From the IMG/VR virus record IMGVR_UViG_3300031027_000021, positions 1 through 49,712 of that record: DNA of 49,712 nucleotides; one strand, written 5' to 3'. How positions within the stretch are numbered: position 1 is the first letter of the stretch; each line of letters starts with the position of its first letter. The stretch is from a virus. The notes below the pieces were generated by a model, which was given only the letters and a program-made list of their open reading frames with translations, was not told where the DNA came from and made no database searches. A program made the translations under genes and the position numbers. Below, in pieces: positions 1 to 49,712 of the stretch.

Positions 1-185
1 ATTGTTAATCATTAAATGATAACATGATTTACAGTTACAAATAAAACATATTAGACTTCGTATGTTCAAGATTTACAGTTACAAATAAAACATATTAGAC
101 TTCGTATGTTCAAGATTTACAGTTACAAATAAAACATATTAGACTTCGTATGTTCAAGATTTACAGTTACAAATAAGTACATTAG
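1..185. repeat. Left terminal repeat: three full copies of a 44-bp tandem unit
   Basis: Units start at 26, 70 and 114 and are identical head-to-tail copies; a fourth, partial copy starts at 158 and diverges after about 18 bases. Bases 1-25 before the array are AT-rich and contain ATCATT-A-AATGAT (inverted repeat). The same flank and array, with only one full unit, recur at the right end. There are no spacers between units, so it is not a CRISPR. It may be a real terminal redundancy, a replication origin with iterons, or an assembly junction in a circular genome. Confidence 0.9.
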
Positions 186-36765: not shown

Positions 36766-37536
36766 TTAAGCATGCGCGATGGCATATACAAGGTCCTTGA
36801 TGGCAGCGGCATAGGCTCCGGTAGATTGCCCTTCAATACCCGGAGCAGTGTTGACCTCAAGTACGTAAAAATTGCCGAACTTGTCTTCGATGATGTCGAC
36901 AGCGCCGAAGTCCAGACCGAGGGCCTCGACGGCTTGAACGGCCAAAGCGTCTCGGGCGGCGGATGCAGGGACATTATTGCGTTGGAAAATGAATCCGTTT
37001 GCATAGCTGCGAACCTTCCAAGTCTTGGGTGGACCAGCTTGCTTGGGGTCCTTGATCTTCATGTGAGATGCAAACGCCTGCGTCCGTGTGGCATGCACCC
37101 GGAACTCACGCACCTTGAAAACATACTTGGAATAAAGCGGGGCGTCAATCAACTTCTCACCCTTCTCTATAACAACAATACCATTTCCCTCATGACCTGT
37201 CAAGATCTTTCGGGCAATAACCGTACAACCAGTGTCGAGCCAGCCTTGTGCGATCGCCTTGTTTGCGGTCCACGGAACTGTCTGAACATTGTGTCCGGCC
37301 CAAATCTTGAAGGCCGTGCGCTTATTGACTGCGCGTACGACAGCGTCCGGGCAGTTGAAAAGGGTGAAGTCCTTCTCTAGTTCAGGAAACTTGGTGTCAT
37401 CACCCACACCCCAATTAACGATGATGTCGCCGCTCTTGACACCCTTGCCAAGCGTCATCCGCTTGAAGCCAGCTTCGTGTGCCAACGCATAGGCACCTTC
37501 ACTGGCACGGCCAGCGGTATAAACCCAGATTACCAT
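36766..37536 (-). CDS. ATP-grasp ligase (RimK-like)
   Basis: A 256-residue ATP-dependent carboxylate-amine ligase. ATP-grasp motifs are visible: ARKILTGHEGNGIVVIEKGE (phosphate-binding loop), REFRVHAT, and the metal-binding end GAVDIIEDKFGNFYVLEVNT. Such enzymes join an acyl phosphate to an amine, often adding amino acids to peptides or proteins. It overlaps the amidoligase gene by 7 bases and is the last clear enzyme of the amide-bond cluster running from 42.7 kb. Confidence 0.85.
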   Translation of the reverse strand: MVIWVYTAGRASEGAYALAHEAGFKRMTLGKGVKSGDIIVNWGVGDDTKFPELEKDFTLFNCPDAVVRAVNKRTAFKIWAGHNVQTVPWTANKAIAQGWLDTGCTVIARKILTGHEGNGIVVIEKGEKLIDAPLYSKYVFKVREFRVHATRTQAFASHMKIKDPKQAGPPKTWKVRSYANGFIFQRNNVPASAARDALAVQAVEALGLDFGAVDIIEDKFGNFYVLEVNTAPGIEGQSTGAYAAAIKDLVYAIAHA

Positions 37537-38459
37537 CCGTAAGGGTCCTTTTTCTTGTTAATGATCTTTGGCTTCGCACCATTGGTGAGTTCTTCAGCCG
37601 TGAATTCGTTCCATTCGGAACAATAAGCGAAGTCCTGGGCAATACGCATACCATTGAAGAGCATGTCGGTTGCACCTTCAACAGCAACGTACTTGGCAGC
37701 ATATGGACCAAGAACATCCTTAAGGAAAGCCTCAGGTCCGAGACCGCTAAATGCTTGGATGATCTCGGTCGGGTTCTTGAAGATCTTAGCCTTGTTCTTC
37801 AGAGCCTGCAAAGTACCGATCCAGTGCATCAGACGGCCTTCATGCGTGGTGCACTCCAGCGATCTGAACTCGATGGTTCCGTACTTCATCAGGCTGGCAA
37901 AGTTGATTGAACTATAACGATGGTTCTGGTTTATATCAAAGAAACCGTGGCCATTATTCACACTGGACATCAACTCTTGAAGTTGACCCATTGCGTCCTT
38001 GGCGCGCAGACAGAAGTTGTTGCCAACCCGGTGTTCACCGTTCTGAGACACCAGAAGTTCGTCAAACAGAAGTGCGAGACAGATGAAATTATAGATGGTA
38101 CGGTATTCTTCCATTGCAAAATTGACATGAACGTGAATAGATGTGCGATATGATTCGTACACCGTAACACCGGGGCTGTTCAAATATGCAAACAAATAGC
38201 CGATAGCCTTTTCAGTCTGGGCCGGACCGAATGGCATACGGAATAGATATTCGATCGCCTCATCACCAGGGTTCTTGATGCGAAGTGAACCGTCCTTTGT
38301 AGTGGTCCAGTATTGCATCACTTCAATTGGGGGTTTGAGGATATTAGCCCCTTCGATCTCCATCTCAATGCCGTATGCGTCGGCATAATCCATTGCATTC
38401 TGTTGAATGGGCATGTGAACAGCAAGCTTATCCATAAGGTTCATCTTATGGGTGTACAT
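37530..38459 (-). CDS. Amidoligase (glutamine synthetase/GCS-like, Amidoligase_2 type)
   Basis: A 309-residue enzyme of the COOH-NH2 ligase superfamily. Conserved pieces are YGIEMEIEG (metal-binding Glu pair, residues 29-37), TKDGSLRI, SIHVHVNFA, and KYGTIEFRSLE; together they mark a glutamine-synthetase-like active site. It would couple a carboxylate to an amine at the cost of ATP. The partner genes are an ATP-grasp ligase, a second ligase family and two amidotransferases. ATG 38459 overlaps the preceding gene by 14 bases. Confidence 0.8.
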   Translation of the reverse strand: MYTHKMNLMDKLAVHMPIQQNAMDYADAYGIEMEIEGANILKPPIEVMQYWTTTKDGSLRIKNPGDEAIEYLFRMPFGPAQTEKAIGYLFAYLNSPGVTVYESYRTSIHVHVNFAMEEYRTIYNFICLALLFDELLVSQNGEHRVGNNFCLRAKDAMGQLQELMSSVNNGHGFFDINQNHRYSSINFASLMKYGTIEFRSLECTTHEGRLMHWIGTLQALKNKAKIFKNPTEIIQAFSGLGPEAFLKDVLGPYAAKYVAVEGATDMLFNGMRIAQDFAYCSEWNEFTAEELTNGAKPKIINKKKDPYGW

Positions 38460-39054
38460 TGTATCGCGCCTCCTCTAGCGCCTCTTGAAGATGCCGAGCT
38501 TCTGACAAAATCTTGAACTTAGCAAGGTCAGGACTGATCGACATCCCAATCTTACGACCGTGATATTCTAGAATGCAGTCTTCATGAATTTGATCATAGG
38601 AAAGAGCAAAATCTCGGTGCCAAGCACGGCTACTATATTCACCGTCCATCAGAACTTTCTTCACCTCTTCAACGCTGGGATAAATATTCTCCAGCATCTT
38701 GATAAACGGCCCAGAGAAACCGAAGTTGTCATGCGGTCCAGCACCAGGTGTCGAAAATACATAACCAAGTTGGCTGGATTTAAGCCCCTGTTGCCACTGC
38801 TTCTGTGGCTTACGATACCACCAACCGGCGTAATTCCCACCATTAACGTAACCGATCTTGTAGTTCTTATAATCCAACGCCGGATCATTGAGAGATACAG
38901 ATTTGTATGCTCTGGAACTTTGCAGGCCAAGCACAAGAATGAAACCATCATTAGTCTTATCCACTGTCTTCACCGTGGCGGCTTTCTTATCATACATAAC
39001 AACGGTGCCAGTAAACTTAGAATTCACTTCTTCCAGCATATCGAAGTCGGCCAT
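38446..39054 (-). CDS. Orphan protein of the amidoligase cluster
   Basis: A 202-residue protein between the two ligase genes, 2 bases after one and overlapping the other. The first half is beta-rich (FTGTVVMYDKKAATVK, GFILVLGLQSSRAYKSV) and contains an aromatic stretch NYAGWWYRKPQKQWQQG; the second half is helical. No domain is recognised. Its fixed place suggests it helps the ligases, perhaps as substrate, carrier or specificity factor. Confidence 0.6.
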   Translation of the reverse strand: MADFDMLEEVNSKFTGTVVMYDKKAATVKTVDKTNDGFILVLGLQSSRAYKSVSLNDPALDYKNYKIGYVNGGNYAGWWYRKPQKQWQQGLKSSQLGYVFSTPGAGPHDNFGFSGPFIKMLENIYPSVEEVKKVLMDGEYSSRAWHRDFALSYDQIHEDCILEYHGRKIGMSISPDLAKFKILSEARHLQEALEEARYNVHP

Positions 39055-39056
39055 TT

Positions 39057-39902
39057 CTACGCTGCCACTCCCTCCGGCAGATCTTCCAACCCAAGGTCAA
39101 AGTCGACAAGACCTTCAGGCCAATCAATGTCGTTCATGTCAATGATATGTTGAGCCATATCACCATAAAAGTCTTCAGCGAAGTCGCCGTTGAAAGCGTC
39201 TGCCATGGCGCACTGAATGGTGTTGTACACCCAGCGCATCAAAGGTTCACTATCGAGCCACTTATTCGATAGTACACGGTATTCCAGTCCATATGACTTG
39301 GGACGAAATGCCCCAGCCTTACCGTAAAGCTTACGCCGAGTCCCGTCCTTATCCCAAAGCAACGAATAAATACCGAGATAGTAATCAAGTTGTCGGGCCA
39401 CCTTACAACAGAAGAGGAAATGATCTTTATCTTCAACGTCGGCTCCTTCGGTCCAACCGATATGGAGGTGACCGCTGGCAGTTCGGAAAGGCTCACCAGC
39501 GGGGTCCGGTCGGGGGTTTTGGCCCTGCGTCCAGCCGTTGTAGTCGGGGTTGCAACCCAATTCTTGGGCGCTCGTCGGCACTTCGAACCTAAAGTACTCA
39601 GCGTCGAAACGAGCGACGGGCTCGGCCACCACATTGTAGCCGGGAACCATCTCCGTCAGCGTTCTGCGGACGGAATGAATGTAACCGACGAACTCATCAA
39701 CGGACGTCGCCGGGTCAATATTGAACTCCAGCGCAGTACCGTCGATCTGGACAGCCCCATGGGGAACCGGAAAAGGTTTCCACTTGGTACCCGGAATACG
39801 GGCTAGGCAGTCGTTGTCGGAGGCTGAAATGAATTCCCCGTTGTTCGGGTTCCTCATAAACAACTCGGGGTCTGCACCCACGAGTACTGGTAGTTTATGC
39901 AC
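39057..39902 (-). CDS. phiEco32-like COOH-NH2 ligase type 2
   Basis: A 281-residue ligase with the pattern of the family named after phage phiEco32: GADPELFMRN, PVPHGAVQIDGTALEFNI, SGHLHIGW and the closing YGLEYRVLSNKW. The acidic and histidine residues in these blocks are the expected metal- and ATP-binding set. It is distinct from the other amidoligase encoded at 37530, so this phage has two ligase families in one operon. The start ATG is 39902, 10 bases after the amidotransferase stop. Confidence 0.85.
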   Translation of the reverse strand: MHKLPVLVGADPELFMRNPNNGEFISASDNDCLARIPGTKWKPFPVPHGAVQIDGTALEFNIDPATSVDEFVGYIHSVRRTLTEMVPGYNVVAEPVARFDAEYFRFEVPTSAQELGCNPDYNGWTQGQNPRPDPAGEPFRTASGHLHIGWTEGADVEDKDHFLFCCKVARQLDYYLGIYSLLWDKDGTRRKLYGKAGAFRPKSYGLEYRVLSNKWLDSEPLMRWVYNTIQCAMADAFNGDFAEDFYGDMAQHIIDMNDIDWPEGLVDFDLGLEDLPEGVAA

Positions 39903-39912
39903 GCCAAATCTC

Positions 39913-41013
39913 CTAGATTGCGTACTGAGCTATTTCGAATTGTTCTTCGCTATTGTAACACTCTTCGCACATATAAGGAGTATGATAACCGATGTAGGGT
40001 CCGACGATCTGGACAAAATCATTCCAGTGTTGGCCGTTAGCGTTGCAGAACATACAACCTTCCTCAACCATGGCGTCGAACTCTTTCTTGATCACGATCC
40101 GACCGTACTTATCCTTGTACGGCTGGCGAAATTTATCCGACTTCGGCCGTTTGTCGAACGGCATAATCGTATCAGAAAAAGAAGCCTGGAACCCGTTCGT
40201 GAGATGGGTAATCTGTGTACCATGCCGCTTCTTCTTCCCAAGGTGAAAAGGGCCTGAGTAGGAGGCAGTCCAAGTCCTCCCTTCGATCTTCCGTTGAACC
40301 GGTGTCTCGATCTTCTTCGACGGAAGGTTCGGGATGGTGAAAGTATACAACATGTCAGACGGCGGCTGGAAGTACTGCGGTTTGCCGTCGTCGCCCTTCT
40401 GGATGGCCTTCTTACGTCTATTGAGGACATACTCAAGCATCTCCGGTTCAGACGCCCAGACAAGCGTTGTACGATCACTGCTGTACGTGTACCACAGCGG
40501 CCGCTTGCCGTTACGGATCATGTTCAACGTATGATCACGTTTATCAAAATAGACCAGAGCCCAAGCGCCCGACATCAACTTGAGTGTTTCGTCGATGCCC
40601 TTCTCTTCGATAGTGGCGAAGATGGCTTGGCTGTCGGTCCCGTATAGGTCAGCACCGGTCAGATCCTTGATGCAGAACTTATCGAGAGTACCGTTATGCG
40701 CCCCCATAACATTCGGGAATATAAATGGGTGGGCGTTGGCTTCTGTCTTCTCACCGAGAGTGGCAAAGCGGTTATGACCCATGAGGACCTTTTGAGGATG
40801 AGCTATAGCCATAGCCTTCTCGAAGTCCTCTTCCCCGAAGAGCTTAAACGGATGACCAATACGCTTGGCCAACATAAACTCTTCAGTACCACGTCCGACG
40901 AACCCTGCACCAGTGCTGTGTGAGCCACGAACGACATCAACGAGCAATAGTTCTTGAAAAACGTCCTTCCAACTGCCTGAGCAGTCGCCACAAACGCCGA
41001 CTAGACCACACAC
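39913..41013 (-). CDS. Class II glutamine amidotransferase
   Basis: A 366-residue Ntn-type amidotransferase. Cys2 (MCGLVGVCGD) is the nucleophile exposed after Met removal; RGSHSTGAGF, GHNRFAT and AHNGTLDKF are the glutamine pocket motifs; GTDSQAIFATIEEKG follows as in GlmS/AsnB. It releases ammonia from glutamine for a coupled synthetase. The C-terminal 60 residues have CMFCNANG and CEECYN, an added zinc finger. No synthase domain is fused, so the acceptor enzyme must be another gene, most likely a ligase in this operon. Confidence 0.85.
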   Translation of the reverse strand: MCGLVGVCGDCSGSWKDVFQELLLVDVVRGSHSTGAGFVGRGTEEFMLAKRIGHPFKLFGEEDFEKAMAIAHPQKVLMGHNRFATLGEKTEANAHPFIFPNVMGAHNGTLDKFCIKDLTGADLYGTDSQAIFATIEEKGIDETLKLMSGAWALVYFDKRDHTLNMIRNGKRPLWYTYSSDRTTLVWASEPEMLEYVLNRRKKAIQKGDDGKPQYFQPPSDMLYTFTIPNLPSKKIETPVQRKIEGRTWTASYSGPFHLGKKKRHGTQITHLTNGFQASFSDTIMPFDKRPKSDKFRQPYKDKYGRIVIKKEFDAMVEEGCMFCNANGQHWNDFVQIVGPYIGYHTPYMCEECYNSEEQFEIAQYAI

Positions 41014-41687
41014 TTAACGCGCACCTCTTCGAGATAATGAACCACCATGTCCAGACAGAACGTGGCGAATTCACTGTTGGGAACATATTCCGGATGCCCC
41101 TGAATGCACAGGCTGCCGGTGCTCGGGTACCAGACGATCTCGGTGTCTTTGTGATCGTCAGGATAGAACACGCCGCCGTTGGCGTTCCAGGTGTCCGGAT
41201 CGGCATACTTCTTGGTGGCACAGTCCGCCGTGGCCAAGACCTTACTGGTTTTCAGGTTGGGGCGCATCATCTGGTGATGCGTTGAAGTAACGTAGATTGT
41301 CTGGCCCGTCGCCAGCACCGTCATGTTGTGGGAACGACCGTGATTGTTAACGTCTTGCCACAGTGTCCCACCGTTGAGAACATTCAACATTTGAGCACCC
41401 TTGCAGATGCCTAGGAGCAGCTTGGAGCCGCCCTTGAACCTGTAGTACAGGTCCATCTCCATCCGATCACGGCGGCTGGGTTGCTCGGGGATGCCACGTT
41501 GGATTGGATGTTCACCGTACAGGATGGTACCCAAGTCGGCACCACCATTGAAGATGATCACGTCGGCGTTCTCAACGGACGTTTCTTGGCTGCCGGCCAT
41601 GGTGAACAGGTTGGCCATGCCTTGGTCGGCTCCTTCATTCTCTAGAAAGGAGTGAAACTTAGTTCCATTCAGGATCCGGCTCGTCAT
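41001..41687 (-). CDS. Class I glutamine amidotransferase / peptidase C26-like
   Basis: The catalytic triad is intact: Cys in LLLGICKGAQMLN, His-Glu in IQGHPEYVP; the oxyanion region is NADVIIFNGGADLG. Members either take ammonia from glutamine or cleave gamma-glutamyl bonds (as PuuD does). In this operon it may recycle or trim the product of the ligases. The start is uncertain because the gene overlaps the previous one: ATG 41687 (MTSRILNGTKFHSF) is chosen, ATG 41618 is an alternative. It overlaps the class II gene by 13 bases. Confidence 0.8.
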   Translation of the reverse strand: MTSRILNGTKFHSFLENEGADQGMANLFTMAGSQETSVENADVIIFNGGADLGTILYGEHPIQRGIPEQPSRRDRMEMDLYYRFKGGSKLLLGICKGAQMLNVLNGGTLWQDVNNHGRSHNMTVLATGQTIYVTSTHHQMMRPNLKTSKVLATADCATKKYADPDTWNANGGVFYPDDHKDTEIVWYPSTGSLCIQGHPEYVPNSEFATFCLDMVVHYLEEVRVKCVV

Positions 41688-42657
41688 CGAAGTCATCGAT
41701 GTCTGGTTGTTCTTCAAGTTCATTGGGGATGGGCTCCTCGTCGTGAATTGGTTGTTGAAGTTGTGCATTAAACTGAGGCATTGGTTGTGGCCAAATATTA
41801 GGATTAAATTGTCCTGCGGGAAATTGATACAGAAACGGTACAGGTTTCTTCTTCGGGGCCGTCTTCGAAAGCGGCATCGGTTCAGGAGCTTCGAGCTTCT
41901 GCACCGGCATGGTATAGAAAGCTGCGATCTCATCGTCCGTCATCGCCTTCAATTTAATGTAGTCTTTACAGACACCCCAAATACAGTTGGTAGGCCGACT
42001 GTCTTCAGGGGCAATCTTGAAGGACTTAGAAAGCCCAACCATGTTACCTTGAAGAATGTTAGACCAGTTTGACGACGGATCGAGCCAGAAATGTGCAGTT
42101 CGCCAATGATCAAAGGAACGATGTGTACCAATGATACAAGCACAACCATTATAGCCACGAGATGAACCATACGAATATGTAAGAAGAAACGCAAGAACTG
42201 GATCAAACCCTTTCTCACAACGTTCGCCCCAAGGCTCTAGAATGAACCGATGTTCAATCGTAACTCTGGTGGCGATGCAGAAGTTCATCAGGACGTTACC
42301 AGGCCAGCGGTCAAGGTTCAGACAACGAAGGAAATACTTGTTACCTAGGCGTTCCAATCGGATTAGATCAGACACAGAGCGGAAAGGGCCCCTAATGAGC
42401 ATACGAATATACTCAAGAGACAATTCGTCAGAATATGGAACAGCAGTGATAAGTTCATCAAAGCCAGGTCCATCATAACACAGATTAGCATGACATACAT
42501 GGTTATTGTGTGCGATGACCTTCTTTTCATCAATCGACCAGGCAAACCAAGAAGACGGGGAAGCTGCACAAAGACTAGGGTAAGACTTAAAGAACTCGGG
42601 AAGGTTCGCTTTCACGACACCGTCCGGAAGTAGACTCAGGGGATTTTTAGCTGCCAA
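41659..42657 (-). CDS. Orphan protein at the head of the amidoligase operon
   Basis: A 332-residue protein. Residues 1-240 form a compact domain with many Cys and Trp (SLCAASPSSWFAWSID, CACIIGTHRSFDHWRT), after which a Pro/Gln-rich linker leads to an acidic tail (DIDDFDDEPDPEWN). It is the first gene after the promoter at 42786-42813. TTG 42657 has AGAAGG 9 bases upstream. No family recognised. The acidic, flexible tail could be a substrate for the ligases (speculative). Confidence 0.65.
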   Translation of the reverse strand: MAAKNPLSLLPDGVVKANLPEFFKSYPSLCAASPSSWFAWSIDEKKVIAHNNHVCHANLCYDGPGFDELITAVPYSDELSLEYIRMLIRGPFRSVSDLIRLERLGNKYFLRCLNLDRWPGNVLMNFCIATRVTIEHRFILEPWGERCEKGFDPVLAFLLTYSYGSSRGYNGCACIIGTHRSFDHWRTAHFWLDPSSNWSNILQGNMVGLSKSFKIAPEDSRPTNCIWGVCKDYIKLKAMTDDEIAAFYTMPVQKLEAPEPMPLSKTAPKKKPVPFLYQFPAGQFNPNIWPQPMPQFNAQLQQPIHDEEPIPNELEEQPDIDDFDDEPDPEWN

Positions 42658-43430: not shown

Positions 43431-43517
43431 TGGTGGGCCGGGATGGATTCGAACCAATCGTACCCCGAAGAGACCAGATTTACAGTCTGGCGCATTTAAC
43501 CACTTTGCTACCGGCCC
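43431..43517 (-). tRNA. tRNA-Tyr (GTA)
   Basis: 87 bases including encoded CCA. Acceptor GGGCCGG/CCGGCCC, D-arm GCA...TGC, anticodon arm CCAGA-CTGTAAA-TCTGG with anticodon GTA, a long variable arm with a TTCG loop as in bacterial tRNA-Tyr, and T-loop TTCGAAT. The T-stem reads GATTGG against CCATC, so it needs one bulged T. It lies 7 bases from the stop of the neighbouring gene. Confidence 0.93.
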
Positions 43518-45224: not shown

Positions 45225-45425
45225 CTAGTTCTCACCAGCCCATACAGCGTGAAAGAATGGCTCACAGGCGATCATTCCGTTCTCGGACGTTCTGATCAAG
45301 CCAGCGATATGAGGCCACCAGCGATAAACAACGTGGTCTGTACATTTACAGGGACACGGTTCATCAACTCTTTCACGATAGTCATCTTCATCATAAAGGA
45401 GACGACCTTTGTAGTAATATTTCAT
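45225..45425 (-). CDS. Small cysteine-containing protein
   Basis: A 66-residue protein starting MKYYYKGRLLYDEDDYRERV with AAGGAG 8 bases before ATG 45425. CPCKCTDH in the middle may bind metal. Aromatic-rich (YRWWPHIAGL). Overlaps the micro-gene upstream by ATGA. No family recognised. Confidence 0.6.
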   Translation of the reverse strand: MKYYYKGRLLYDEDDYRERVDEPCPCKCTDHVVYRWWPHIAGLIRTSENGMIACEPFFHAVWAGEN

Positions 45426-45505
45426 AGTTCATCTCCTTCGAATATGGAGGCCAGTTTTACGACATAGCCAAGGTCGGCCATCAGTTGTCGGATGGACTTC
45501 AACAC
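45422..45505 (-). CDS. Possible 27-residue peptide
   Basis: GTG 45505 opens a frame ending ATGA with the next gene: LKSIRQLMADLGYVVKLASI then FEGDEL. It begins at the 3' edge of the tRNA-like element and contains the ribosome site of the next gene. It might be a leader peptide. No strong ribosome site of its own; low confidence. Confidence 0.3.
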   Translation of the reverse strand: MLKSIRQLMADLGYVVKLASIFEGDEL

Positions 45506-45555
45506 CAGGTGGTAGGACTCGAACCTACCAAAGAGCCCGGACCTGGTGCACCTGG
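45505..45555 (-). ncRNA. tRNA-like mini-structure: acceptor stem plus T-arm only
   Basis: CCAGGTG (45555-45549) pairs with CACCTGG (45511-45505) as a 7-bp acceptor; directly before the 3' strand stands GTAGG-TTCGAGT-CCTAC, a 5-bp T-stem with a canonical 7-base T-loop. The D and anticodon arms are replaced by 20 bases (45529-45548). No CCA follows (TGTT). It sits between two genes, right after the stop at 45557. It may be a decayed tRNA, an RNase P processing site, or a former attachment site. An alternative 8-bp outer stem (CACCAGGT/ACCTGGTG) is possible. Confidence 0.55.
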
Positions 45556-45556
45556 C

Positions 45557-45898
45557 TTATGCAGCCTCAGCGGCGACTGGCTCGGCCGCGGCCGTGTTGA
45601 ACTTCTCGGCCAGGGCCTTGACGCCGTTGGCGAGATATTCATCGACCTGCGCCGGAGTCGCGACGTTGATCTCGGTCGCGTGGCCGTTGTGCGTGGCCCA
45701 CCACAGATGGTCCTGCAGCCACTTCCGAGTGCCGAAGTGGTGCATGTCGACGATGCGCTCGCCGATGTCGCGTCCTTCAGGGTTGAAGGTCATGACAGAG
45801 ATGTAGAGATTCTGGGGATTGCCGTTCGTGGCCGTAGGGGCCGGAGCCGCCGGTTGCTGCGTGTCGGCGGTCGTCGTCGTCTTTGACTTGCTGGTCAT
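45557..45898 (-). CDS. Hypothetical protein with disordered N-terminus
   Basis: A 113-residue protein (MTSKSKTTTTADTQQPAAPA...). The first 30 residues are Thr/Pro/Ala-rich; the rest is a small domain (NLYISVMTFNPEGRDIGERI, WLQDHLWWATHNGHATEIN) ending in an Ala-rich tail. ATG 45898 is chosen; GTG 45907 is possible. G+C-rich. Function unknown. Confidence 0.6.
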   Translation of the reverse strand: MTSKSKTTTTADTQQPAAPAPTATNGNPQNLYISVMTFNPEGRDIGERIVDMHHFGTRKWLQDHLWWATHNGHATEINVATPAQVDEYLANGVKALAEKFNTAAAEPVAAEAA

Positions 45899-46054
45899 TG
45901 TTCTCACAGATTATGAGGGGTTTCGTTGATTGGCACACCGAACAGCATTGTCGGTGGCATTAGAGAGCAAGTCAGTTGCGATTAAGGTCCATGGGATGTC
46001 GCCCCCCCGATTAAGGAAGCAATATTTCCTTTCCCCTGCTCGAACTGAGCAAAA
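45899..46054 (-). other. Gap with an unassigned open frame and a run of seven G
   Basis: After the KTSC-domain stop the same frame stays open for 47 codons (including NRGGDIPWTLIATDLLSNAT) to a TAA before the next gene, but it has no ATG or GTG. It crosses seven consecutive G on the minus strand. Either a recoded or mis-assembled gene or chance. The direct repeat CGATTAAGG occurs twice here. Confidence 0.3.
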
Positions 46055-49615: not shown

Positions 49616-49712
49616 ATTGTTAATCATTAAATGATAACATGATTTACAGTTACAAATAAAACATATTAGACTTCGTATGTTCAAGATTTACAGTTACAAA
49701 TAAGTACATTAG
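49616..49712. repeat. Right terminal repeat: one full copy of the 44-bp unit
   Basis: This 97-base end equals bases 1-69 joined to 158-185 of the left end, so it lacks exactly two 44-bp units (88 bases). The single full unit is 49641-49684. Because the ends match except for unit number, the record is a complete circle or a redundant linear molecule, and the true copy number of the unit is unknown or variable. Confidence 0.9.

Follow-up and report, generated by a model that had tools for sequence, protein, structure and literature searches.

Genomic context of the locus

The window, that is, the whole stretch of DNA that we analysed, is 49.7 kb long and represents an uncultured tailed phage. 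Genes for the terminase, the portal and the major head proteins lie on its plus strand, and those for the DNA polymerase, the primase-helicase and thymidylate synthase on its minus strand. Contig L002, which is 99.9% identical to the window, spans the window ends, and the genome is thus circular or terminally redundant. There is also a near-terminal direct repeat of ~88 bp (window 1-88 and about 49616-49703), which contains 22-bp repeats. No close phage was found in GenBank: half of the window had no match in a megablast search, and the search with the terminase returned only relatives with <60% identity. The terminase-based relatives (L005-L007) were too distant to inform the locus discussed below. 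Elsewhere on the minus strand, positions 37530-41933 are occupied by adjoining genes for two amidoligase-type enzymes (PF12224 and PF14395) and a Peptidase_C26 (PF07722), an arrangement that is conserved in relatives.

The locus of interest lies on the minus strand. A gene for a 116-aa protein (45557-45907) is followed there by a gene for a 66-aa protein (45225-45425). The gap between them holds a tRNA-like stump (45505-45555), in which an acceptor-like stem is joined to a T-arm with neither a D-arm nor an anticodon arm, and a conserved H-type pseudoknot (45449-45477) in the following gene's leader. The stump begins 1 nt past the TAA of the 116-aa gene. The 116-aa protein had no match in a Pfam search and no convincing one in PHROG; among its relatives, a core, VVDMYHFGTRNWLQNHHWWAMHNGH, is strongly conserved. 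The only complete tRNA of the phage is an intact tRNA-Tyr(GUA), also on the minus strand (43431-43517).

Architecture of the stump and its resemblance to tRNAs

Read 5' to 3' on the minus strand, the 51-base stump is composed of the acceptor-like strand CCAGGTG (45549-45555), 20 nt (CACCAGGTCCGGGCTCTTTG), the T-arm GTAGG-TTCGAGT-CCTAC (45512-45528) and the second acceptor-like strand CACCTGG (45505-45511), after which comes TGTTG and no CCA. Pairing is Watson-Crick throughout, with 7/7 pairs in the acceptor and 5/5 in the T-stem. The geometry drawn in the initial annotation (a 7-bp acceptor, a 20-nt insert, a 5-bp T-stem and a TTCGAGT loop) is correct, as are its coordinates and strand.

To estimate how readily such an arrangement arises by chance, we used a descriptor made up of a 7-bp acceptor, an insert of 5-70 nt, a 5-bp T-arm and a TTCRANY loop. 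In its Watson-Crick form, the descriptor matched once in the window and not at all in 400 dinucleotide shuffles; with G-U pairs allowed, 400 dinucleotide shuffles gave 27 matches, or six when the insert was limited to <=30 nt. For a Watson-Crick T-arm on its own, chance predicts 0.11 occurrences per window. Neither ARAGORN, with its threshold lowered to 40%, nor the Rfam model RF00005 called a tRNA at the stump, as is to be expected when two arms are missing. The best tRNA-type Rfam match of the stump was tRNA-Sec, with 14.8 bits, far under the cut-off of 47. The D-arm and the anticodon arm, by which a functional tRNA was recognised, have both been lost, and the stump therefore cannot be a translating tRNA.

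The resemblance to real tRNAs is concentrated in the 3' part. The T-arm equals those of phage tRNA-Asn genes: an 18-nt stretch, GTAGGTTCGAGTCCTACC, is identical to the tRNA-Asn of Aeromonas phage Ahp1 and Pseudomonas phage ZC08, and 17 nt of the stump are identical to the tRNA-Asn of Synechococcus phage S-CREM1. A blastn search for a donor tRNA gave weak T-arm matches only, the best being again tRNA-Asn (E 0.4-5), and exact 25- and 21-nt patterns of the stump, searched for in phages, were matched only by the near-identical contig, with no donor tRNA. Compared with a panel of 12 tRNAs, some of which were picked by their similarity to the stump and so favour a match, the gap scored better than 300 of 300 shuffles, with only its 3' part matching. 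No detectable similarity to tRNAs was seen in the 27 nt that lie left of the T-arm, for which 257 of 300 shuffles were equally good. Judged by these alignments, the stump looks like the 3' end of a tRNA joined to sequence that would carry no remaining signal of tRNA ancestry.

The same slot in related phages

Homologues of the 116-aa gene are present in IMG/VR contigs, one of which (L009) keeps the surrounding gene order. In contig L020, whose homologue shares 38% identity with the 116-aa protein, an intact tRNA-Leu(UAA) (1384-1468; 63.1 bits to RF00005) lies 23 nt past the stop codon of the homologue. With G-U pairs allowed, the descriptor was applied to 13 phage records (473,721 bases) and returned two matches only, namely the stump and this tRNA-Leu(UAA). 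Both are located directly behind homologues of the 116-aa gene, in a slot that makes up <1% of a genome. It is mainly because the two matches share one orthologous slot that we think of the stump as tRNA-derived.

The stump itself is shared only with the near-identical contig L002, while the other relatives have either tRNA-Leu or none. No clear tRNA was seen in the gap behind the homologue of the 116-aa gene in L013-L015, L017-L019, L021 and L034. In L016, the gap aligns with the D-arm and anticodon arm of the L020 tRNA-Leu, with 7 of 300 shuffles equally good and no match to this stretch in Rfam or BLAST; such a likeness to tRNA-Leu is suggestive only. Another tRNA-like stretch, read by eye in L027 (4365-4437), was rejected, having no Rfam match and a similarity not above that of shuffles; ARAGORN called it only at the 80% threshold (78 plus-strand matches in 3000 shuffles). 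Among the relatives compared, no close one was found to carry the same tRNA species intact. The tRNA-Tyr of the window is missing from the syntenic relative L009, which indicates that tRNAs are gained and lost in this lineage.

Origin and possible roles of the stump

Overall, we consider that the stump is probably the remnant of a tRNA gene that the phage carried in the gap after the 116-aa gene. A phage tRNA gene would once have occupied this gap; its T-arm and 3' acceptor strand would have survived the loss of the D-arm and the anticodon arm, and the stump would now be decaying, with no dedicated job. A tRNA remnant was one of the possibilities raised in the initial annotation, and it gains support from synteny, an intact tRNA-Leu occupying the same slot of L020. 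The identity of the T-arm to those of real tRNAs and the absence of the stump from other relatives also speak for it. On the other side, the acceptor strands pair at 7/7 positions, above what would be expected after old decay, there is no CCA end, and C1 and U73 would be atypical of a tRNA. Moreover, the search for a close relative with the ancestral gene intact yielded none; what it gave was another tRNA (Leu), beside a homologue with 38% identity. The simplest account is nevertheless a tRNA gene that is dead or dying.

Degenerate tRNAs have been documented in phage CBA120 (PMC3184105) and in T4-like phages (PMC1524935). The stump would resemble these as a broken tRNA in a phage genome, with a relative that has a tRNA at the corresponding position. 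Unlike them, it is solitary, shortened to an acceptor and a T-arm, and situated directly behind a conserved protein gene instead of in a tRNA cluster. The stump is in itself a modest find; as a tRNA remnant, it would offer a snapshot of how phage tRNAs are gained and lost at fixed spots.

Two features are not mentioned in the initial annotation. The 5' strand of the stump is duplicated: next to CCAGGTG there is a second copy, CACCAGGT (45541-45548), which makes a better helix, of 8 bp, with ACCTGGTG (45510-45503). Besides, GGGCTC is able to pair with GAGTCC, and this would abolish the T-arm. Among 4000 sampled structures, the drawn acceptor and T-arm accounted for 9% of the ensemble in the bare stump, 0.8% with short flanks and 0.1% in a 175-nt stretch, and the shifted register of CACCAGGT with ACCTGGTG plus the T-arm for 36% and 43% with flanks, all of these being energy-model estimates, which take no account of T-loop tertiary contacts or protein. 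The same stack can also be divided 6+6, in competition with the 7+5 split. The tRNA-like fold as drawn is predicted to be a minor state, with the competing register and an alternative inner helix dominating. The overall folding z-score of the stump is merely -1.37. An intrinsic terminator was looked for at the stump, and none was found there.

When flanks are included, the predicted structures are dominated by the shifted register combined with a 6-bp GGTAGG/CCTACC arm. Such a fold, an 8+6 bp stem interrupted by an 11-nt bulge, could be an ordinary intergenic mRNA hairpin with a role in stabilising or punctuating the transcript, its likeness to a T-arm being a coincidence. The 5' part of the stump, which is not tRNA-like, would agree with this. 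However, no terminator-like T-run accompanies the stump, and a consensus T-arm, rare as it is in a window of this size, would have to have arisen by chance exactly where a relative has a tRNA. We regard the hairpin as rather unlikely.

We also find it unlikely that RNase P acts here, as proposed in the initial annotation. The enzyme would recognise the stacked acceptor and T-arm and cleave the polycistronic mRNA at 45556/45555, directly behind the stop codon of the 116-aa gene, which would give the downstream mRNA a new 5' end. The geometry, in which 12 pairs are stacked and the loop is TTCGAGT, permits this, and the enzyme is known to cut phage RNAs other than tRNAs, among them P1/P7 C4 and M3 RNA (PMC11143913). 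However, the required fold takes up only 0.1-9% of the modelled ensemble, the 3' RCCA is absent, with TGTTG following the stem, and the stump is not conserved in relatives that have a homologue of the 116-aa gene. RCCA is important for E. coli RNase P on small substrates, and a non-tRNA pseudoknot substrate lacking RCC was left uncut by E. coli RNase P RNA (PMC12710915), although some phage tRNA precursors have no CCA (PMC11143913). The precursor of the P1/P7 C4 antisense RNA, an RNase P substrate, is likewise a phage RNA with tRNA-like features. In contrast to it, the stump is a candidate substrate, with no 3' RCCA and no known antisense target. All in all, the stump probably does not serve as a dedicated site of RNA cleavage.

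It seems very unlikely, too, that the 3' half of a decayed tRNA was retained and took on a new use as a minimal acceptor/T-arm signal, by which RNase P of the host, or other enzymes that handle tRNAs, would define the 5' end of the phage mRNA downstream. The leader of this mRNA bears the conserved pseudoknot 28 nt beyond the stump. Were the stump a processing signal, it would be a minimal substrate of RNase P that occurs naturally within an mRNA.

The 3' halves of tRNAs are common attachment sites, and the initial annotation had raised the idea that the stump might be one, copied from a host tRNA. We consider this extremely improbable: the search of host genomes for a tRNA with the 3' half of the stump gave 0 matches, both the 24-nt 3'-half pattern and the 20-nt inner pattern being absent from 84,980 genomes (among which the true host may be unsampled), and neither the window nor five relatives had a match to the tyrosine integrase domain PF00589. 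Finally, a weak cmscan resemblance to YrlA, a Y RNA-like RNA that mimics tRNA, arises through the T-arm-like hairpin and is not significant (15.1 bits against a cut-off of 69), and no Ro60 (TROVE) protein was found in the window or in the two relatives tested.

A conserved pseudoknot next to the stump

About 28 nt downstream of the stump (45477-45449) lies the sequence GACCTTGGCTATGTCGTAAAACTGGCC. It follows a motif consisting of GACCT, a loop, GTC, an A-rich linker and a tail complementary to the loop, which fits an H-type pseudoknot with stem 1 formed by YGAC/GTCR and stem 2 by the loop with the 3' tail. The motif was found ten times in six records, the window among them, in most cases with the ATG of the following gene 28-41 nt further on, the instances having been gathered partly by eye and from few relatives. 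Copies of the GACCTGGGNNATGTC..TAAACTGNCC pseudoknot, located in leaders of small genes, are present in L013 (7677), L016 (980), L009 (4846 and 5639), L018 (5325 and 6298), L019 (5550) and L027 (4334).

Across eight sequences, 93.8% of the cells pair, and two-sided changes affect 10 cells versus 3.0 in shuffles. The covariation score was 0.473 versus 0.188 in shuffles, with 0/500 shuffles reaching the observed value, and one of the pairs occurs in all four Watson-Crick types. Pairing fell to 22-36% when the partners were slid by one column. When tails were swapped between distinct loops, an equally good fit arose in 1.7 per 10,000 permutations. In Rfam, the window stretch with the pseudoknot had no match up to E = 10.

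The pseudoknot is better supported as an RNA than the adjoining stump, and it may be a new phage cis-regulatory RNA. Since it precedes several different genes, a general leader element appears likelier than autoregulation of one gene. As a repeated, covarying leader element with no counterpart in Rfam, it may matter more than the stump itself. Apart from the pseudoknot, an intergenic RNA-like stretch, GAGGCAnCCAnGGTAGCGCCnTGG...AACGTC...GGCGTGACAGGCGGGGAGAGACCCG, is common to L021 (6360-6425) and L034 (4340-4415), and a shorter related copy of it lies near position 4530 of L034.
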